A DNA stretch of 58,820 bases from an uncultured Lachnospiraceae bacterium. Its GTDB lineage: Bacteria; Bacillota; Clostridia; Lachnospirales; Lachnospiraceae. Within the stretch, counting starts at the first letter, position 1, and every line of letters begins with the position of its first letter. The position numbers and the translations under genes were made by a program. Positions 32,507 to 40,077 of the stretch are shown in pieces. The notes under the pieces are model-generated. The model searched no databases and was not told the origin of the DNA. It saw only the letters and a list, made by a program, of their open reading frames with translations. The DNA is taken from contig CADANF010000028.1 of NCBI GenBank assembly GCA_902789175.1, positions 1-58,820 of the forward strand. Reading direction: 5' to 3'.

Positions 32507-32534
32507 TTGATTTATAGCGCTGATATGCTATAAT
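32507..32534 (+). promoter_or_regulatory. Promoter of the UPF0145/TPR/coiled-coil operon
   Basis: TTGATT (32507-32512) and TATAAT (32529-32534) are 16 bases apart, 58 bases before the first gene of the cluster. Confidence 0.6.
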
Positions 32535-32591: not shown

Positions 32592-33686
32592 ATGTCAAAA
32601 CAAATTTTAGTAACTACCGGTTCAACTTTTCAGGATTATGAGATTGCTGAATATCTTGGCATTATAACAGGACAGGGTGTCTTGGGAAGTAACTTTATCA
32701 AGAGTCTTACAGCCACCGTTTCTGATGCTTCAGAACGTGAGGATAAGAAGCTTGAGAAGTGTAGAGAAGATGCTTGTGAAAAGATTGAGGCTGCGGCTGA
32801 AAAACTTGGAGCTGATGCTATAATCGGTATGAGACTTACGTATGCGTCCTGTGAAGGCGGTTCTTATGGAATCATTGCTTCAGGAACTGCAGTAAAGATC
32901 AAAAAGAAGGTCTGCCTTGAGAAGACAAGACATAAAGAACTTGTGGTAACAAATTATTATCTCAGGGTTGTGCCAAAGCCGGTCAAGGTAATTCTTGATG
33001 GAAACGTAAGAGAAGTTTTGATGAAGGTGCAGTTCTTTAATTACAATTTAGAGAACATACTTGCTATCAGAGCAAATCTGGAATTTACAAATCTTTATGA
33101 TGAGAGATTAGTCATAAGAGATATCGATTTTACATTTGAAAAGGGAAATGTATCCCTTATCGAAGCGGAAGCCACAGATGCAAAGATCTCAATGAATGAC
33201 ATGCTCCTTCTTAAAGATGCTAAACTTACGATAAATAAATATGCTACTCCTAATGGAGTGTTTGCAGTAAATGATACTCCTGTAGATGTTACAATGTCAG
33301 TTAAGAGACTTATGGCATTTAAGGAGAAACATGGAATAGATGCAGTTGAGAAATATAAGAACGATGGAATGATCTGGACATGTATGTGCGGACACATTAA
33401 TGAAGGCGGTTCTGAAGAATGCCAGATTTGTGGACGTAAACAGTCGGACATGAGAACTGAGGTTAATTTCAATTATGATGATATGATCAGAAGAATGAGA
33501 GCCAGAAAATCAGTTACTGAGATCAAAGATGTTCTTATGGATTACATTAAAGAGATTGATTCAAAATATAGACTTGAACTCCTTGAGATAATGGAGTCAG
33601 GCATACAATATGAAAAAACCAGAGGTAATATGACAGACACAGTAATAGAAAAGGTTGAGAAAGTCCTTGAAGACTGTCTTGCATAG
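32592..33686 (+). CDS. UPF0145/YbjQ-domain protein with C-terminal zinc ribbon
   Basis: 364 residues. The first 105 match the UPF0145 (YbjQ-like) fold: ILVTTGSTFQDYEIAEYLGIITGQGVLG, a helical EREDKKLEKCREDACEKIEAAAEKLGADAIIGMRLTY-type block, and a Gly-rich IIASGTAVKI strand. The middle (about 120-240) is beta-rich and unrecognised (RVVPKPVKVILDGNVREVLMKV). Around 262-284 is a four-Cys ribbon (WTCMCGHINEGGSEECQICGRK), RanBP2/zinc-ribbon-like. A helical tail follows. First gene of a three-gene operon with strong GGAGG site. Confidence 0.75.
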   Translation: MSKQILVTTGSTFQDYEIAEYLGIITGQGVLGSNFIKSLTATVSDASEREDKKLEKCREDACEKIEAAAEKLGADAIIGMRLTYASCEGGSYGIIASGTAVKIKKKVCLEKTRHKELVVTNYYLRVVPKPVKVILDGNVREVLMKVQFFNYNLENILAIRANLEFTNLYDERLVIRDIDFTFEKGNVSLIEAEATDAKISMNDMLLLKDAKLTINKYATPNGVFAVNDTPVDVTMSVKRLMAFKEKHGIDAVEKYKNDGMIWTCMCGHINEGGSEECQICGRKQSDMRTEVNFNYDDMIRRMRARKSVTEIKDVLMDYIKEIDSKYRLELLEIMESGIQYEKTRGNMTDTVIEKVEKVLEDCLA

Positions 33687-33725
33687 TAATCTGGAAATGA
33701 TAGAAATGTAAAGGTGGATAAGGTT

Positions 33726-36029
33726 TTGAGTGCTGGACTTAGTATGGCAAGTGTAAATAAAATAAAAGAACTGGCTTCAAGACATGAATATAATGTCGCA
33801 GTTGATATTCTTGATTCACAGGAATTAGAAAAGTCTCTCAATCCGCAGTTTTTACGTGTATGTGCAGAAGTATACGAAAATGTAGGAAGAATGAGAGAGG
33901 CCAGAGATCTATATGTTAGGGCTCACTCCATAGCACCAGAAGCTAATATGATCATTCTCAGTCTTATAAATTTCTATTTAAAGAGAGGTTTCTATAAGCT
34001 GGCTGAGAATTATAAAGAACAGTTTATTGCCACATCATCATCTGAACGCGGTCAGATCAATGGACAATATATCTTTGATAAGGCAAATGGCGCTGACCTA
34101 AAGGATCTTTATAATATGCTTTTCCCATATTATAGAGACAATATGGATGAGAAATATAGTTTTGAACTTTATCTTGTTGCGAAATTAGCCGGAGAAAAAG
34201 AAACAGAAGATATAGTATATAGTGATTACCTTGCTACATTTAAAAGAGGAGAATTTACTGATACTATAAAGAATATAAAAGAAGGCAGGGAAAAGGCTGA
34301 GGATTATTTTTATATCTATTCTACTGAGAGGAGAATGGATGATGATCCTTCAGAAGAAAATATTCGAATTCTTGAAAAAGAACAACTTGAGAAGGATTAT
34401 CTTAGGATGTATCCGCCAGAAGAGGAAGCTATCATTCTTGAGGATGTTGTAGAAGAGCCAAAACCTAAAGCTGCAAAGAAGAAAAAGAAAAATTCTAAAA
34501 ATGCTTCTGACAATGCAGATGATTCGGATGATGAAACAGATGAAGACGCTGAATCAGCAGATAACGGCGTTGAAAATAGATTAAAATCATTTATCAAAGA
34601 TAAATTTAAGAAGAAGGCAGCTGATAATGAGGCCGATGCTACTGACGATGAAGAGATTGGCTTAGAGGAACTTGAGGAAGGACAACCTGTAAATGAGTCG
34701 GATCCTGAAAGTGACAGCTTTGTTGCCAGCATGGAAGAAAGCATTAAGAGAGGTCAGGCTAAAGAGGTTAAAGAGACCAGTGATAGTGGATCTATACTTG
34801 ATGCAATCCTTGGATCAAAAAGTAAGAATTCAGATGTTCAGACTGCTTCATTTACTGCGGAAGGCGGTAAGGGAAGACAGGAGATGCGTGAATTAAAACC
34901 TGAATTTACACAGGATGATGTTCTTTCATTTGATTTTGATAATGGTTTTGCTCCTGAATCGGAAAGTATTTCAGAAATGAGAGAAAGAGATACAGAGGAT
35001 TACACAAATCCATTTGACATCATAAATGCTTATAAGATTGATGAGCAGGAAAGAAGAGAATCTGCTGAAGCTCTTGGAAGAAAGTCTCCTGAGGATATCA
35101 GAATAGAGCTTGAGATAAATAATGTAGATGAGCAGTCTACTCCTGATGAAACTATTAAAGAGCAGACATATTCAGATCCTAGCGATATCGCCGAACAGAC
35201 TCAGAGAGAAATCGATGAGAAGAAGGATGAGCAGGATATTAAGAATGCTGCTGACAGGATCAGTGGAGAAGCTTCTGCAGAAGATATGTACCCAGACGAC
35301 TTAAAGGTTGAACAGATGGAGACATATTTCAGACCTGAAGCTGAAAGCAAAACAGAGGCAGCAGGCGAAGAAACTGAAGAGTCATCGGAATTTGCAGCAG
35401 AAGAGACTGTATCAGAAGAGACTGTATCAGAAGAGACTGTATCAAAAGAGACTGTATCAGAAGAGACTGTATCAGAAGCTGCAGAGACATCGATAGAAGA
35501 GTCGGTAGAAGAGTCGGTAGTAAATACAGTAAAAGAGACAGCAAAAGAAGTTACATTAGAAAATGAGACAGCAGAGGATACATTAGAAGATACATTAGAA
35601 GAGATGCCGGGTGTGGAAGTTGCAGAGACAGTTGAAACATCAGGATCAGAAGAAGAATCAATGACTGCCTGTGAGACAGTTGATGATAGATATGAAACAC
35701 AAGCTGTTGAGGAGACTGTAGAAGCTCCTTATACAGAAGAAGTTCCAGATGCAGTTGAGAAAGCACTCAACAAGGCAAAAGAATCATTTTCCAGCAGTTT
35801 TGAAGAAGAGATCAGATCTGAAAGAGCTTATGAAGAAGAGCATTTTGGAAATATCACTTTCCCAGAATTTAAGACAGATCTTTTCAATCTTCCAAGCCAT
35901 GAGAAAATTGAGAATAAGTTTGATGATATAGCCGAAGTTAAGAAGGAAGCTCTTGCCGAGAAATTAGAAGAGGAAGAGAGACTTCAAAGAGAAGCTGAAG
36001 AACTGCTTAGATCACTTGGAATTAAGTAG
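33726..36029 (+). CDS. TPR protein with long acidic disordered tail
   Basis: About 767 residues. The N-terminal 220 are helical with tetratricopeptide-like repeats (FLRVCAEVYENVGRMREARDLYVRAHSIAPEANMIILSLINFYLKRGFYKLAENY). From about 230 the protein is low-complexity and acidic, with a KAAKKKKKNSKN patch and five tandem EETVS-type repeats. The last 70 residues become structured again (FGNITFPEFKTDLFNLPSHEKIENKFDDIAEVKKEALAEKLEEEERLQ). The start is uncertain: TTG 33726 has AAAGGTGG 8 bases upstream; GTG 33714 and ATG 33744 are alternatives. Probably a scaffold for the coiled-coil protein encoded next. Function unknown. Confidence 0.72.
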   Translation: MSAGLSMASVNKIKELASRHEYNVAVDILDSQELEKSLNPQFLRVCAEVYENVGRMREARDLYVRAHSIAPEANMIILSLINFYLKRGFYKLAENYKEQFIATSSSERGQINGQYIFDKANGADLKDLYNMLFPYYRDNMDEKYSFELYLVAKLAGEKETEDIVYSDYLATFKRGEFTDTIKNIKEGREKAEDYFYIYSTERRMDDDPSEENIRILEKEQLEKDYLRMYPPEEEAIILEDVVEEPKPKAAKKKKKNSKNASDNADDSDDETDEDAESADNGVENRLKSFIKDKFKKKAADNEADATDDEEIGLEELEEGQPVNESDPESDSFVASMEESIKRGQAKEVKETSDSGSILDAILGSKSKNSDVQTASFTAEGGKGRQEMRELKPEFTQDDVLSFDFDNGFAPESESISEMRERDTEDYTNPFDIINAYKIDEQERRESAEALGRKSPEDIRIELEINNVDEQSTPDETIKEQTYSDPSDIAEQTQREIDEKKDEQDIKNAADRISGEASAEDMYPDDLKVEQMETYFRPEAESKTEAAGEETEESSEFAAEETVSEETVSEETVSKETVSEETVSEAAETSIEESVEESVVNTVKETAKEVTLENETAEDTLEDTLEEMPGVEVAETVETSGSEEESMTACETVDDRYETQAVEETVEAPYTEEVPDAVEKALNKAKESFSSSFEEEIRSERAYEEEHFGNITFPEFKTDLFNLPSHEKIENKFDDIAEVKKEALAEKLEEEERLQREAEELLRSLGIK
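35401..35475 (+). repeat. Five tandem 15-bp repeats inside the TPR protein gene
   Basis: Unit AAGAGACTGTATCAG occurs five times in succession (one copy ends CAA), encoding EETVS/KETVS. Being in frame and identical, it is prone to copy-number change by slippage. Confidence 0.92.
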
Positions 36030-36092
36030 GGTATTCAATTGGGGGATCCTTATTATAATTGGCACGTATAGAAGGAGGTACTAGAGAGAGTT

Positions 36093-38936
36093 ATGGACCA
36101 GAGAGAAGCACTTATCGCTGCTGTTAGAGCGCAGGTAGAGAAGGAGCGTCAGGAAAAAGAGGAAAAACTTAAAAAGCAAAAGGAGGCTGAGCTTCTTGCA
36201 GGCAAGGGAAAAGCTGAAGCAAAGGCAGAGGATGATAAGCCGAAATATAAGACACTTTCAGCTGAAGAACTTGCAGAAATTGAAAAGAAGAAGCGTCAGA
36301 AGAGAGCCGAAGAGCTTGGCGTATCGCTTGAGGAACTTGAAGGTGGCTTAGGTGGAGCATCAAGCACAGGAGGCGGACTTGGAAGCACAAGTACAGGAGG
36401 CGGCCTTGGATCTGTTCCTTCAGGTGGACTTGGAAGCACAAGTACAGGAGGCGGCCTTGGACTTAATCTTGATGACAAGGTTAAGGTGGTAGATGGCAGT
36501 ACTTCTAAGTGGGAGTCTGGGCAGAAGACAGATGTTGCAAAGAAGACACAAGATGATCTTGATAGCATACTTCCTGAACATAAAGAAGGCGAAGCAAATA
36601 TGTATGACCTCGAGGATGAGGCTAATACATCATTTGATGCTCAGTTAGGAAAGCTTGCGGATGAAACTCCAATTGAAACTGCACCAGCTGAAGAAAATAA
36701 AGAAGAAGCTACTGACAATAATAAGAAGAAAGAAAATGGCGTAGACAGAGCAGACGAAGAGCGCCGCAGAATTGAAGCTGCGCGTGAGAAGGCAGCAGCT
36801 AAGAAGCGCGAAGAAGAAGATGCTCATAAGAAAGCTGAAAATGAAGCTAAGGCTAAAGCAGAAGCTGAAAAGAAGAAGAAAGAAGAAGAAGCTAAGGCTA
36901 AAGCATTAGAAGAAGAGAGAAAGAAACGTGAAGCTGCGGCTGCTAAGCGTGAGGCTGCGGCTGCTAAGCGTAAAGCCCGCAATGACGAAAGAAGAAAGGC
37001 GTCGGCCGGAAATACTGCTAAGAAGAAAGTAGATAATGAAGAGGCTAAGAAAGCAAAAGAGGCAGCATTAAAGGCTGTTGAAGAAGCTCATAAGAAGGTT
37101 ATTGAAGCAGAAGAGAAGTTAAGTAAGGCTGGAGCTGCAGGAACAGCAAAGGTAGACTTCAATGCATTACTTATGCAGCAGGCTAAGGAAGCTGCTGAGT
37201 GTCAGGCTGCTTTACAGAAGAAAAAGGATGATATAGCTAACCGCGAAGAAGAGGCTAAGGCTTCTGGAGCTGCTGCTAAGACAAAGATTGAAGAAGCTGC
37301 AGCTTTAAGAAAGAAGTCAGAAGAAGACAAGATGGCAGCTCTTCTTAAGAAGCATCAGGACAATGCTGCTTCAAGAAAAGAAAAGGCAGCTGAAACTGCA
37401 GCTGCTGCTAAGACAGAGGCTGAAAAGCAGGTTGCTATCGTAGATAAAGCCAAGGAAGAACTTGTTGCAAGACGTGTTGAAGAAGATAAAGCTTCAGATG
37501 CTGCAAAGGCAGCTCAGCAGCAGGTTATTGCAACTGCAGAACAGGGCGTAAAGAAAGAAGAATTAAATGTAGTAGCTGCTAACGAAAATGTTAAGACAGC
37601 TGAAGATAAGGTAAAAGAACTTCAGGCTCTTGTTGAAGAAGCTAAGAAGAAAGTAGAAGCAGCCAAGGGCGTTGCACTTGATGCGGTTAAGGTTAAAGAT
37701 TCGGCAGTTAAGGTTGTTGAAGACGAAAAGAAGAAGTTAGCGGATCTTGAGAAGAAGGATCAGGAAGTAGCTTCAAAACGTAAGACTGAAGATGATAGTC
37801 TTGCTAAGAAGAGAGATGAGGCTGTAAAGAATATTCCTCTTGCTGTAGCTAAGTCAGAGCAGGACGCAAAGGCAATAGAGAAGGAAGCTATCAAGGCTGA
37901 GGAAGAAGAAAAGAAAGCTCTTAATGCTGAATTTGAGAAGGCTGCTCTTAAGGATGCTGAAGATATCAAGAAAGTCGAAGCAGATATAAAGGCAAGTCTT
38001 GACTCACTTAAGGCTGAACTTATTAAAGCAGAAGAAGATTTTAAGAAGGCTACTGAAGCCAGAGAAGAAAAAGCTAAGGCTGTTTTATTAGGCGGAGGTG
38101 CGGATCAGTCAGCTGATGATGCGAAGAAAGAAGTTGAAGAAGCTCGTAAGGCTGAAGAAGAAGCTCGTAAGAAGGCGGATTCGATTGAAGTTGGTAAGGA
38201 AGAGGAAACTCCAGCTATTGAAGAAGGAAAACTTCCTCTTGCAGCTTATTATCTTGAGAAATACCTTGGATTTACAGATGCAGCTGATGATGTGATCACA
38301 GCATTTAATGATATTGCTTCATTACCTGAACTTCCAAAGAATGTTGTTATCCTTGGACTTCATGGATTTGGTTCTGTTGCAGTTGGTGAAGATTATGCCA
38401 GATCATTCTATGATATGGGACTTATCAAATCAAAGACTATTGCAAAGATCAAAGCTCAGGGCCTTAACAAGGTATCAGAAGAGAAACTTGTAGAAAGTAT
38501 GAAGAAACTCTCAGGCGGATGCCTTGTAGTAGAAAATGCTGGTCTTCTTGAAGAGAATAGATTAAAGAAGGTTGTTGAACTTTCAAAGAAAGATAAAGAT
38601 GGATTCGGTATTATCCTTACAGGTGAGAAGGAAAGACTTGTCGACCTTCTTATCAGTAAGCCAGAACTTGATGATGCATTCCAGTATCATGTAGACTTCT
38701 CATCTATGACAGATGATGATATGAAGACTATCGGTCTTGCATATGTAATGCAGAGAGGTTTCACATGGGATGACTCAGTTGATAAGAACCTTCGTAATAT
38801 GCTTCTTGCTATGGAAACAGGTAATGTTGACCGTATGATCGCAGACCTTGACACCGTTATTGATAAGGCAGAAGCTAGAGAAAAGTCAGCTGGTAAAGAG
38901 AATGTTAGAAAGATCATGGGAGATGACTTTAAGTAA
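36093..38936 (+). CDS. Giant coiled-coil protein with a C-terminal AAA+-like pseudo-ATPase domain
   Basis: 947 residues. Order: a charged helical start; a Gly/Ser-rich repeat (GGLGSTSTGGGLG, about 83-125); a linker; about 480 residues of Lys/Glu/Ala coiled coil (about 225-715); then a globular domain from about 735. That domain follows the CbbX/SpoVK AAA+ pattern: VVILGLHGFGSVAVGEDYARSFYDMGLI, LSGGCLVVENAGLL, IILTGEKERLVDLLISKPELDDAFQYHVDF. The Walker A Lys/Thr are missing (GFGSVAV instead of GTGKTT) and Walker B IDEA is VENA, so it cannot hydrolyse ATP in the usual way. ATG 36093 follows AGAAGGAGG at a rather long 14 bases. A filament or tether role is inference. Confidence 0.8.
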   Translation: MDQREALIAAVRAQVEKERQEKEEKLKKQKEAELLAGKGKAEAKAEDDKPKYKTLSAEELAEIEKKKRQKRAEELGVSLEELEGGLGGASSTGGGLGSTSTGGGLGSVPSGGLGSTSTGGGLGLNLDDKVKVVDGSTSKWESGQKTDVAKKTQDDLDSILPEHKEGEANMYDLEDEANTSFDAQLGKLADETPIETAPAEENKEEATDNNKKKENGVDRADEERRRIEAAREKAAAKKREEEDAHKKAENEAKAKAEAEKKKKEEEAKAKALEEERKKREAAAAKREAAAAKRKARNDERRKASAGNTAKKKVDNEEAKKAKEAALKAVEEAHKKVIEAEEKLSKAGAAGTAKVDFNALLMQQAKEAAECQAALQKKKDDIANREEEAKASGAAAKTKIEEAAALRKKSEEDKMAALLKKHQDNAASRKEKAAETAAAAKTEAEKQVAIVDKAKEELVARRVEEDKASDAAKAAQQQVIATAEQGVKKEELNVVAANENVKTAEDKVKELQALVEEAKKKVEAAKGVALDAVKVKDSAVKVVEDEKKKLADLEKKDQEVASKRKTEDDSLAKKRDEAVKNIPLAVAKSEQDAKAIEKEAIKAEEEEKKALNAEFEKAALKDAEDIKKVEADIKASLDSLKAELIKAEEDFKKATEAREEKAKAVLLGGGADQSADDAKKEVEEARKAEEEARKKADSIEVGKEEETPAIEEGKLPLAAYYLEKYLGFTDAADDVITAFNDIASLPELPKNVVILGLHGFGSVAVGEDYARSFYDMGLIKSKTIAKIKAQGLNKVSEEKLVESMKKLSGGCLVVENAGLLEENRLKKVVELSKKDKDGFGIILTGEKERLVDLLISKPELDDAFQYHVDFSSMTDDDMKTIGLAYVMQRGFTWDDSVDKNLRNMLLAMETGNVDRMIADLDTVIDKAEAREKSAGKENVRKIMGDDFK
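36375..36461 (+). repeat. Duplicated 36-bp segment in the coiled-coil gene
   Basis: A 36-base sequence starting GGACTTGGAAGCACAAGTAC occurs identically at 36375-36410 and 36426-36461. It encodes the Gly/Ser linker repeat and looks recent, since even third positions agree. Confidence 0.88.
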
Positions 38937-38975
38937 ATCCCGGGTACTTAATTAAATCTTTAGTTTACAAATTAC

Positions 38976-39014
38976 CCCCTGGTACATATAATTTATGTGC
39001 TAGGGGTTTTATTT
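38976..39014 (+). terminator. Intrinsic terminator after the coiled-coil gene
   Basis: CCCCTGGTACATA (38976-38988) pairs with TATGTGCTAGGGG (38994-39006), with some G-T pairs, followed by TTTTATTTT. It separates the three-gene operon from the MreB-like gene, although the latter starts only 50 bases on. Confidence 0.8.
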
Positions 39015-39063
39015 TACCCTGGTCCAGTTCCTTGGGTGAAAAAGATATTAAAGGAGTTTAACT

Positions 39064-40077
39064 ATGTATCGCATAGATATGGGTATAGATCTTGGCACAT
39101 CAAATGTGTGTATATATATGAGAGATAAAGGTATTGTAATAAGCCAGCCGGCGGTGGTCGCTTATCAGCCGAAGGAGAAAAAAATTCTGGCTGTAGGAAC
39201 AAAGGCAAAGAAGATGTTAGGAAAGACTCCGGAGGGCATTACTGTTGAAAAACCTTTAACTCACGGGGTAATCTCTAGTTATACATTAACAGAAAGAATG
39301 ATCAAAGCCTTTGTAAAGAATGCCTTAAAGAAAAGAAAAATCTGGGGAAGACCTAATATCTGCGTATGCGTTCCGTCGGGTATAACTGAAGTTGAAAAAC
39401 AGGCAGTGGAAGATGCGGTAGTGAGAACAGGCGCAGGTCAGGTGTTTGTATTGGAAGCGCCTATTGCTGCAGCCATCGGAACCGGAGTTGATATAATGGA
39501 AACTGTGGGACATATGGTAGTTGATATCGGAGGTGGAACCACAGATATAGCAATCCTTTCTTCTGGAAATATAGCTGCCGGGACTACGATAAAAACTGCA
39601 GGAAATGAATTTACAGAAGCACTTCAGAAATATGTAAGAAGAAAATATAATATAGAACTTGGTGAACTTACAGCAGAAGATGCCAAGATGGAAGTTGGAT
39701 CAGTTTATCAGAGAAAACAGGATGTTTCATACCAGATAAAGGGAAAGAACCTGCTGAATGGTCTGCCGGTACGTCTTGATCTTACTGCAAATGAGACAGT
39801 AGAAGCATTTGCGGAGGAATCCGCAAAGATCGTGGAAGCTATAACCTCTGTTCTTGAAACTGCACCTCCTGAACTTGTGTCAGATGTAGCTAAAGAAGGA
39901 ATATTCCTTTCAGGTGGGGAAAGTGAAATATATGGAATGGATAAGCTTATAGCAGAAAAGACTGGTCTTAGAGTAACAAAATCCGATGAACCAGAAAATG
40001 TAGTGGCCGCTGGAGCCGGAATGGCAGGCGAATACATAATGGTTGTAGATGAAGATAAAAGAGAAAAAAATCTGTAA
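39064..40077 (+). CDS. MreB/Mbl-family bacterial actin
   Basis: 337 residues. Actin-fold signatures: MGIDLGTSNVCIYMRDKGIV (phosphate 1), ICVCVPSGITEVEKQAVEDAV, VLEAPIAAAIGTGVDI, VVDIGGGTTDIAILSSG (phosphate 2), GIFLSGGESEIYGMDKLI (adenosine site), and ENVVAAGAG near the end. It assembles as membrane-associated filaments guiding wall synthesis in rods. No mreC/mreD/minD follow, so it is a free-standing paralogue. It sits between a scaffold-like operon and the butyrate genes with its own terminator. The GGESE sequence in place of GGGAL is a divergence from typical MreB. Confidence 0.9.
   Translation: MYRIDMGIDLGTSNVCIYMRDKGIVISQPAVVAYQPKEKKILAVGTKAKKMLGKTPEGITVEKPLTHGVISSYTLTERMIKAFVKNALKKRKIWGRPNICVCVPSGITEVEKQAVEDAVVRTGAGQVFVLEAPIAAAIGTGVDIMETVGHMVVDIGGGTTDIAILSSGNIAAGTTIKTAGNEFTEALQKYVRRKYNIELGELTAEDAKMEVGSVYQRKQDVSYQIKGKNLLNGLPVRLDLTANETVEAFAEESAKIVEAITSVLETAPPELVSDVAKEGIFLSGGESEIYGMDKLIAEKTGLRVTKSDEPENVVAAGAGMAGEYIMVVDEDKREKNL

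Follow-up and report, generated by a model that had tools for sequence, protein, structure and literature searches.

The stretch of DNA analysed here, referred to as the window, comprises the 58,820 nucleotides (nt) of contig CADANF010000028.1 (assembly GCA_902789175.1) from an uncultured Lachnospiraceae bacterium with a genome of 2.75 Mb. It carries three consecutive genes, ORF1, ORF2, and ORF3, followed by a second mreB gene of the genome, and the original prediction had proposed that these four genes form an undescribed scaffold or cytoskeleton module. All four open reading frames (ORFs) that it had placed here were open, and the actin homologue, which it had put within 130 bases of ORF3, began after a gap of 127 nt. 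The features of the locus are as follows (aa, amino acids).

32507-32534, plus strand: promoter-like site upstream of ORF1, TTGATT-16-TATAAT with TG before the -10; a consensus match only
32592-33686, plus strand: ORF1, open reading frame of 364 aa; YbjQ/UPF0145 domain at about 5-105, then a beta-rich domain (about 113-225), a zinc ribbon of four cysteines (264-280), and helices at the C-terminus (about 295-363)
33714-36029 from GTG (771 aa) or 33726-36029 from TTG, plus strand: ORF2; TPR-like domain at the N-terminus (about 240 aa), followed by a long acidic linker and ending in the conserved EAEELLRSLGI
36093-38936, plus strand: ORF3, open reading frame of 947 aa; the N-terminal end MDQREALIAAVRAQVEKER is conserved, the middle is charged and helical, and a CbbX-like pseudo-AAA+ domain (about 707-947) forms the C-terminus
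From 38964, plus strand: promoter-like site; sequence scan only
38976-39006, plus strand: terminator-like hairpin followed by a T run; sequence scan only
39064-40077, plus strand: module mreB, 337 aa, with a Pfam match and ATP-site motifs

ORF1 and ORF2 are separated by 27 nt (39 nt with the TTG start) and ORF2 and ORF3 by 63 nt. Alignment of six orthologues indicated that the TTG at 33726 is the most likely start of ORF2, with the GTG at 33714 also possible.

As judged by homology, ORF2 and ORF3 are counterparts of the two halves of a large one-chain Lachnospiraceae protein. In a family sample of 120 Lachnospiraceae genomes, each from a different genus, the ORF3 C-terminal domain was matched in 103, and 73 of these were examined. 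The ORF2 N-terminal domain, a homologue of the fused protein's N-terminus, lay on one ORF with the AAA+ domain in 64 of the 73; four ORFs were cut by contig ends, and two separate genes were present in five (G000, G040, G070, G002, and G106). This fusion supports the earlier pairing of ORF2 with ORF3 and yields the direct, testable prediction that the two proteins act together. We infer that the split form was derived from the fused form, probably in one event. The best match to the ORF3 C-terminal domain had an E value of 3.7e-112 inside the family; outside it, the best values were 6.8e-19 in an order sample (32/146 genomes matched; 15 of these, counting the genome of the window, belong to the family) and 3.9e-16 in a sample of the class (36/196 matched, six in the family). 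Pfam and NCBIfam scans of ORF3 gave no match, and the one-chain protein, found in at least 64 of the 120 sampled genera, matched no Pfam family above the cut-off in the members scanned, in which neither Pfam nor NCBIfam showed a family specific to it. The locus links this orphan with a second one, an extra MreB found in one clade.

ORF2 had been described as a TPR protein with a long acidic tail. The tail was borne out, with a net charge per residue of the linker of -0.20 in the window and a mean of -0.285 over 39 orthologues. The TPR assignment stood less firmly: the match in ORF2 itself lay below the Pfam cut-off (E 0.14), and a fused relative matched TPR_8 with an E value of 1.1e-5 and 25.6 bits, just under the cut-off of 25.7. 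Likewise, the length of the proposed 947-residue coiled coil was correct, and heptad-like hydrophobic periodicity in the ORF3 middle exceeded that of shuffled sequences (z 3.8 and 4.7; 2.1 to 8.8 in four orthologues; 1.4 and -0.2 in the ORF2 linker, used as a control), but this is a crude measure of our own and not a coiled-coil predictor. The sequences of the ORF2 linker and the ORF3 middle were unconserved. The predicted pseudo-AAA+ cap held up, since the C-terminal 240 aa of ORF3 modelled as an AAA+ domain with a lid, closest to CbbX, from which the catalytic residues are gone.

The catalytic positions were read against the CbxX-like protein of the same genome. Scanning named genomes yielded 102 relatives, on contigs of Lachnospiraceae and Eubacterium ruminantium. 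Of these, 80 were kept: 53 loci of the module (L118-L170) and 27 short stand-alone paralogues of the ORF3 C-terminal domain (L171-L197). The alignment contained 64 fused, four cut, five split, 52 module, and 27 short rows; two module rows repeat two split rows. L123 and L126 are taken to be the G040 and G070 loci. ORF3 of the window has S, N, and A at the sites of the Walker A lysine, the Walker B glutamate, and the arginine finger. The Walker A lysine was kept in 47/64 fused and 2/4 cut rows, the Walker B glutamate in 6/64 and 1/4, and the arginine finger in 4/64 and 0/4, whereas all three were absent from the 84 split, module, and short rows (0/84 each); the Walker B aspartate was kept only in 4 of the 52 module rows. 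Conservation extends to the altered sites. This is the pattern of a pseudo-enzyme, suggesting that the split-form domain serves binding and not hydrolysis. The fused form shows losses as well: the Walker B and arginine-finger residues are gone from most copies. Compared with the CbbX/CbxX/SpoVK AAA+ proteins (PDB 3zuh and 3syl), the split forms thus lack all three residues, and the ORF3 domain is joined to a long charged helix, the fused relatives carrying a TPR-like domain and an acidic linker instead. The mostly Walker-A-positive fused form and the fully dead split form together constitute a natural experiment in which an AAA+ ATPase appears to have become a scaffold.

The fourth gene encodes a genuine MreB, which matched MreB_Mbl (PF06723) with an E value of 4.9e-113 and 377.7 bits (cut-off 27). 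It is homologous over its full length to 1jce (E 1e-81), and its ATP-site motifs DLGT and DIGGGTT align with 1jce and 7zpt. In contrast to those proteins, it is a second paralogue on its own branch and beside scaffold genes. The two MreBs of the genome are 46% identical, and the module MreB is 48% identical to the other MreBs of G040, G070, and G106. The gene for the other MreB of this genome lies in a neighbourhood that these three genomes share. MreB was present in all 101 good-quality family genomes. Among 29 MreB loci, the best-scoring of 117 family genomes with a match, the module MreB profile outscored the housekeeping profile in the four other split genomes and in no others, narrowly so for G106 (480 vs 464) and G002 (457 vs 439). 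In an MreB tree of 30 rows, 18 of 19 module rows fell on one branch (100/100), and the MreBs of G106 and G002 grouped with the housekeeping rows, outside their tight branch. On these sequences the module clade has a separate MreB lineage. The direct neighbours of mreB are ORF3 and what we take to be a thiolase gene, or ygiQ in relatives; neither mreC nor mreD lay directly beside it, and neither was searched for elsewhere. A gene for a presumed YgiQ-like radical SAM protein follows the module mreB in many species (for example, L044:17522-19456 and L248:8708-10708), and it stays with mreB in G002, where ORF2-ORF3 lie elsewhere.

The original prediction expected the four genes to be neighbours in related genomes, and within this clade they were. 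ORF1-ORF2-ORF3-mreB occurred in this order on one strand in 38 of the 53 module loci (tblastn), and the other 15 were cut by contig ends, 14 upstream (less than 2 kb before ORF3) and one downstream; the set does not, however, extend across the Lachnospiraceae, as full-length ORF1 was found in only 5/120 genomes of the family sample. In the phylum it was found in 2/398 genomes. The mreB gene adjoined ORF3 in 52 of the 53 loci, the remaining one being cut there. Within the genus, module-type mreB (at least 58% identity) was detected in 33 of 61 genomes, and by our own count from the search listings the ORF3 C-terminal domain lay beside it on one contig in 32, G462 being the exception.

A reading in which ORF1, the ORF2/ORF3 pair, and the module MreB work together as one scaffold is the one that we favour, at a probability somewhat short of even, and several observations weigh against it. 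Module-type mreB was missing from 28 of the 61 genus assemblies. Fourteen of these were fetched, and all ended in ORF2 (12) or just after it (2); the other 14 include G871, G884, and G890, each at least 90% complete. The expected neighbourhood was not always intact. Two outlying genera show this. G106 has three ORFs between ORF1 and ORF2, with ORF2-ORF3-mreB-ygiQ together, and the parts of G002 lie at three places: ORF1 by thyA at a contig end, ORF2-ORF3 on another contig by an argG-like gene, and mreB-ygiQ on a third. These two layouts indicate that ORF2-ORF3 is the invariant pair, whereas mreB and ORF1 accompany it in the genome but need not adjoin it. The C-domain tree (36 rows), with the fused rows on one side (98/93) and the split rows and short paralogue on the other (92/96, not starred), does not tell whether the fused or the split form is older. 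Because the split looks like one event, the co-occurrence counts are not independent. The presumed upstream neighbours thyA and folA and the downstream thiolase-crotonase-hbd-bcd genes were named from their translations. Of these, thyA, folA, thl, and crt, and likewise hbd, keep their order too, so the synteny may partly reflect inheritance within the clade. As a separate observation, contigs of metagenome-assembled genomes (MAGs) of the genus repeatedly break off within the low-complexity tail of ORF2 (about 34450-35900 of the window) or shortly beyond it, and MAG surveys will therefore under-count the module.

The kept flanking order and the probable single split would both be explained if thyA-folA-ORF1-ORF2-ORF3-mreB-thl-crt were simply a stable block of the clade with no functional link, which we consider quite unlikely. 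Tree comparison was not decisive: the highest control-corrected correlations were those of ORF2N-MreB (0.72) and ORF1-MreB (0.68), but control pairs came close (ORF1-Crt 0.65, MreB-ThyA 0.59), so the signal was not clearly above that of the control genes. However, the mean between-species distances of ORF1, MreB, ORF3C, and ORF2N (0.46, 0.52, 0.66, and 0.83) exceed those of ThyA, Thl, Crt, and Hbd (0.17-0.29; FolA, at 0.49, is as variable), and yet the module genes stay together. Other genes have been inserted between mreB and thl while the module genes remained together, ORF2-ORF3-mreB are together even in the outlying G106, and ORF2 and ORF3 are one protein elsewhere, all of which argue for more than an inherited block.

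The surroundings of the fused gene suggest another explanation, namely that ORF2 and ORF3, perhaps joined by ORF1, make up a two-subunit complex that has nothing to do with MreB and organises or regulates, for instance, carbohydrate storage or another enzyme cluster, beside an mreB with its own promoter. In 33 of the 64 fused loci (for example, L045, L048, L049, L052, and L053), glgB followed the fused gene directly in the same orientation, the median gap being 28 nt; in 18 of the 64, rsmA/tatD lay within three genes of it. The regions fetched around the fused genes contained no mreB (0/64), so the one-chain form does not need an mreB neighbour, and this also counts against the four-gene scaffold, as does the hairpin that separates ORF3 from mreB. 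A -10-like TATAAT sits inside this terminator-like hairpin at 38976-39006, and the -35-like TTTACA lies 17 nt upstream at 38964. Of 56 homologous ORF3-mreB gaps, 22 showed a TATAAT-type box within a hairpin of at least 8 pairs and 34 did not, compared with a mean of 1.2 and a maximum of 4 such cases in shuffled gaps; not all of the 22 hairpins are followed by a T run. These scans suggest that the ORF1-3 transcript probably ends at the hairpin and that mreB starts from its own promoter inside that terminator, so mreB is probably not simply on the ORF1-3 transcript. The stem sequences differ among the 22 gaps (the window plus 21, for example, L122, L130, L141, L160, L166, and L169). For the single promoter proposed ahead of the first three genes, a promoter-like site lies at 32507-32534, but such sites are common (35 found vs 26.6 expected from shuffles). 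With mreB-ygiQ also standing apart in G002, a complex unrelated to MreB is a real possibility, if a doubtful one; it is opposed by the adjacency of mreB to ORF3 in nearly all module loci and genus genomes and by the restriction of the module MreB lineage to split genomes among the 29 loci compared.

ORF1 was correctly predicted to contain a UPF0145 domain, as it matched Pfam YbjQ_1 (PF01906) with an E value of 5.9e-21 and 75.5 bits (gathering cut-off 23), and all 36 aligned ORF1 sequences matched this family at E 0.1 or better. Its proposed zinc ribbon was partly supported: C264, C266, C277, and C280 were invariant in 36/36 sequences, but Pfam named the ribbon only weakly (Zn_Ribbon_1 in 2/36 and Zn_ribbon_RanBP in 1/36, best E 0.07). 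In the helical tail, 29 of the 34 positions of 327-360 were invariant or nearly so in the 36 sequences, a near-invariance that points to a binding surface. The known YbjQ/UPF0145 structures (PDB 1vr4, 1y2i, and 2gtc) lack these additions, namely the beta-rich domain, the CxC...CxxC ribbon, and the highly conserved helical tail. YbjQ is a widespread domain of unclear function, and it gains a concrete genetic context here. ORF1-like proteins with YbjQ and part of the middle domain, without the full tail, were seen at L051:5839-6813 (G027) and G419:C41:153656-154231, and the region of the G027 gene has recombinase-like neighbours.

Under the four-gene scaffold reading, the module MreB would polymerise into ATP-dependent filaments, with the membrane as their probable site. 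ORF2 and ORF3 would together act as a long tethered scaffold, with the TPR-like domain on an acidic tether and the pseudo-AAA+ domain on a long charged helix; the conserved C-terminus of ORF2 and N-terminus of ORF3 may dock with each other, leaving the TPR-like and pseudo-AAA+ ends to hold clients. UPF0145 proteins adopt a ring state in the crystal structures of the family, and ORF1 could be a multivalent hub built of a YbjQ ring, the zinc ribbon, and the helical tail. Such an assembly may contact MreB and organise the envelope or protein clusters in space. The MreB/RodZ/MreCD and MamK/MamJ systems likewise have an actin homologue encoded beside dedicated partners; in contrast, searches of the family libraries linked the putative partners here to none of those systems. 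The recognised domains belong to known folds, and our literature search returned nothing on this four-gene combination, which looks like an undescribed cell-organising scaffold in a group of gut and rumen bacteria. Should contact with MreB be demonstrated, the set would represent an actin partner system of a new kind. The stronger proposal, a new spatial-organisation machine in which a dead AAA+ domain or a ring serves as structural adaptor for the actin filament, joining the MreB filament, the split pseudo-ATPase scaffold, and the YbjQ ring hub, is in our view rather unlikely. Long coiled coils and AAA+ domains also occur in defence or conflict systems such as CoCoNuTs, but a role of this kind is highly improbable here: none of the four proteins (0/4) had a PADLOC-DB match at E 0.01, no nuclease domain matched in Pfam above the cut-off, the ATPase site is dead, and the genes keep a steady place beside metabolic genes.

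The short paralogues (334-443 aa in 27 loci; for example, L192:9437-10705) branch from within the split clade of the C-domain tree. In 26 of the 27 the N-terminus is basic and looks amphipathic (KPFxxAYxxIK...); nine fit a strict pattern, a further 17 were recognised by visual inspection, and L195 is the exception. This start is a hint of a membrane site for the scaffold. DPVTGE was held by 25/27 of these proteins, and their genes adjoined purE/purC-like genes in four of the seven loci printed.
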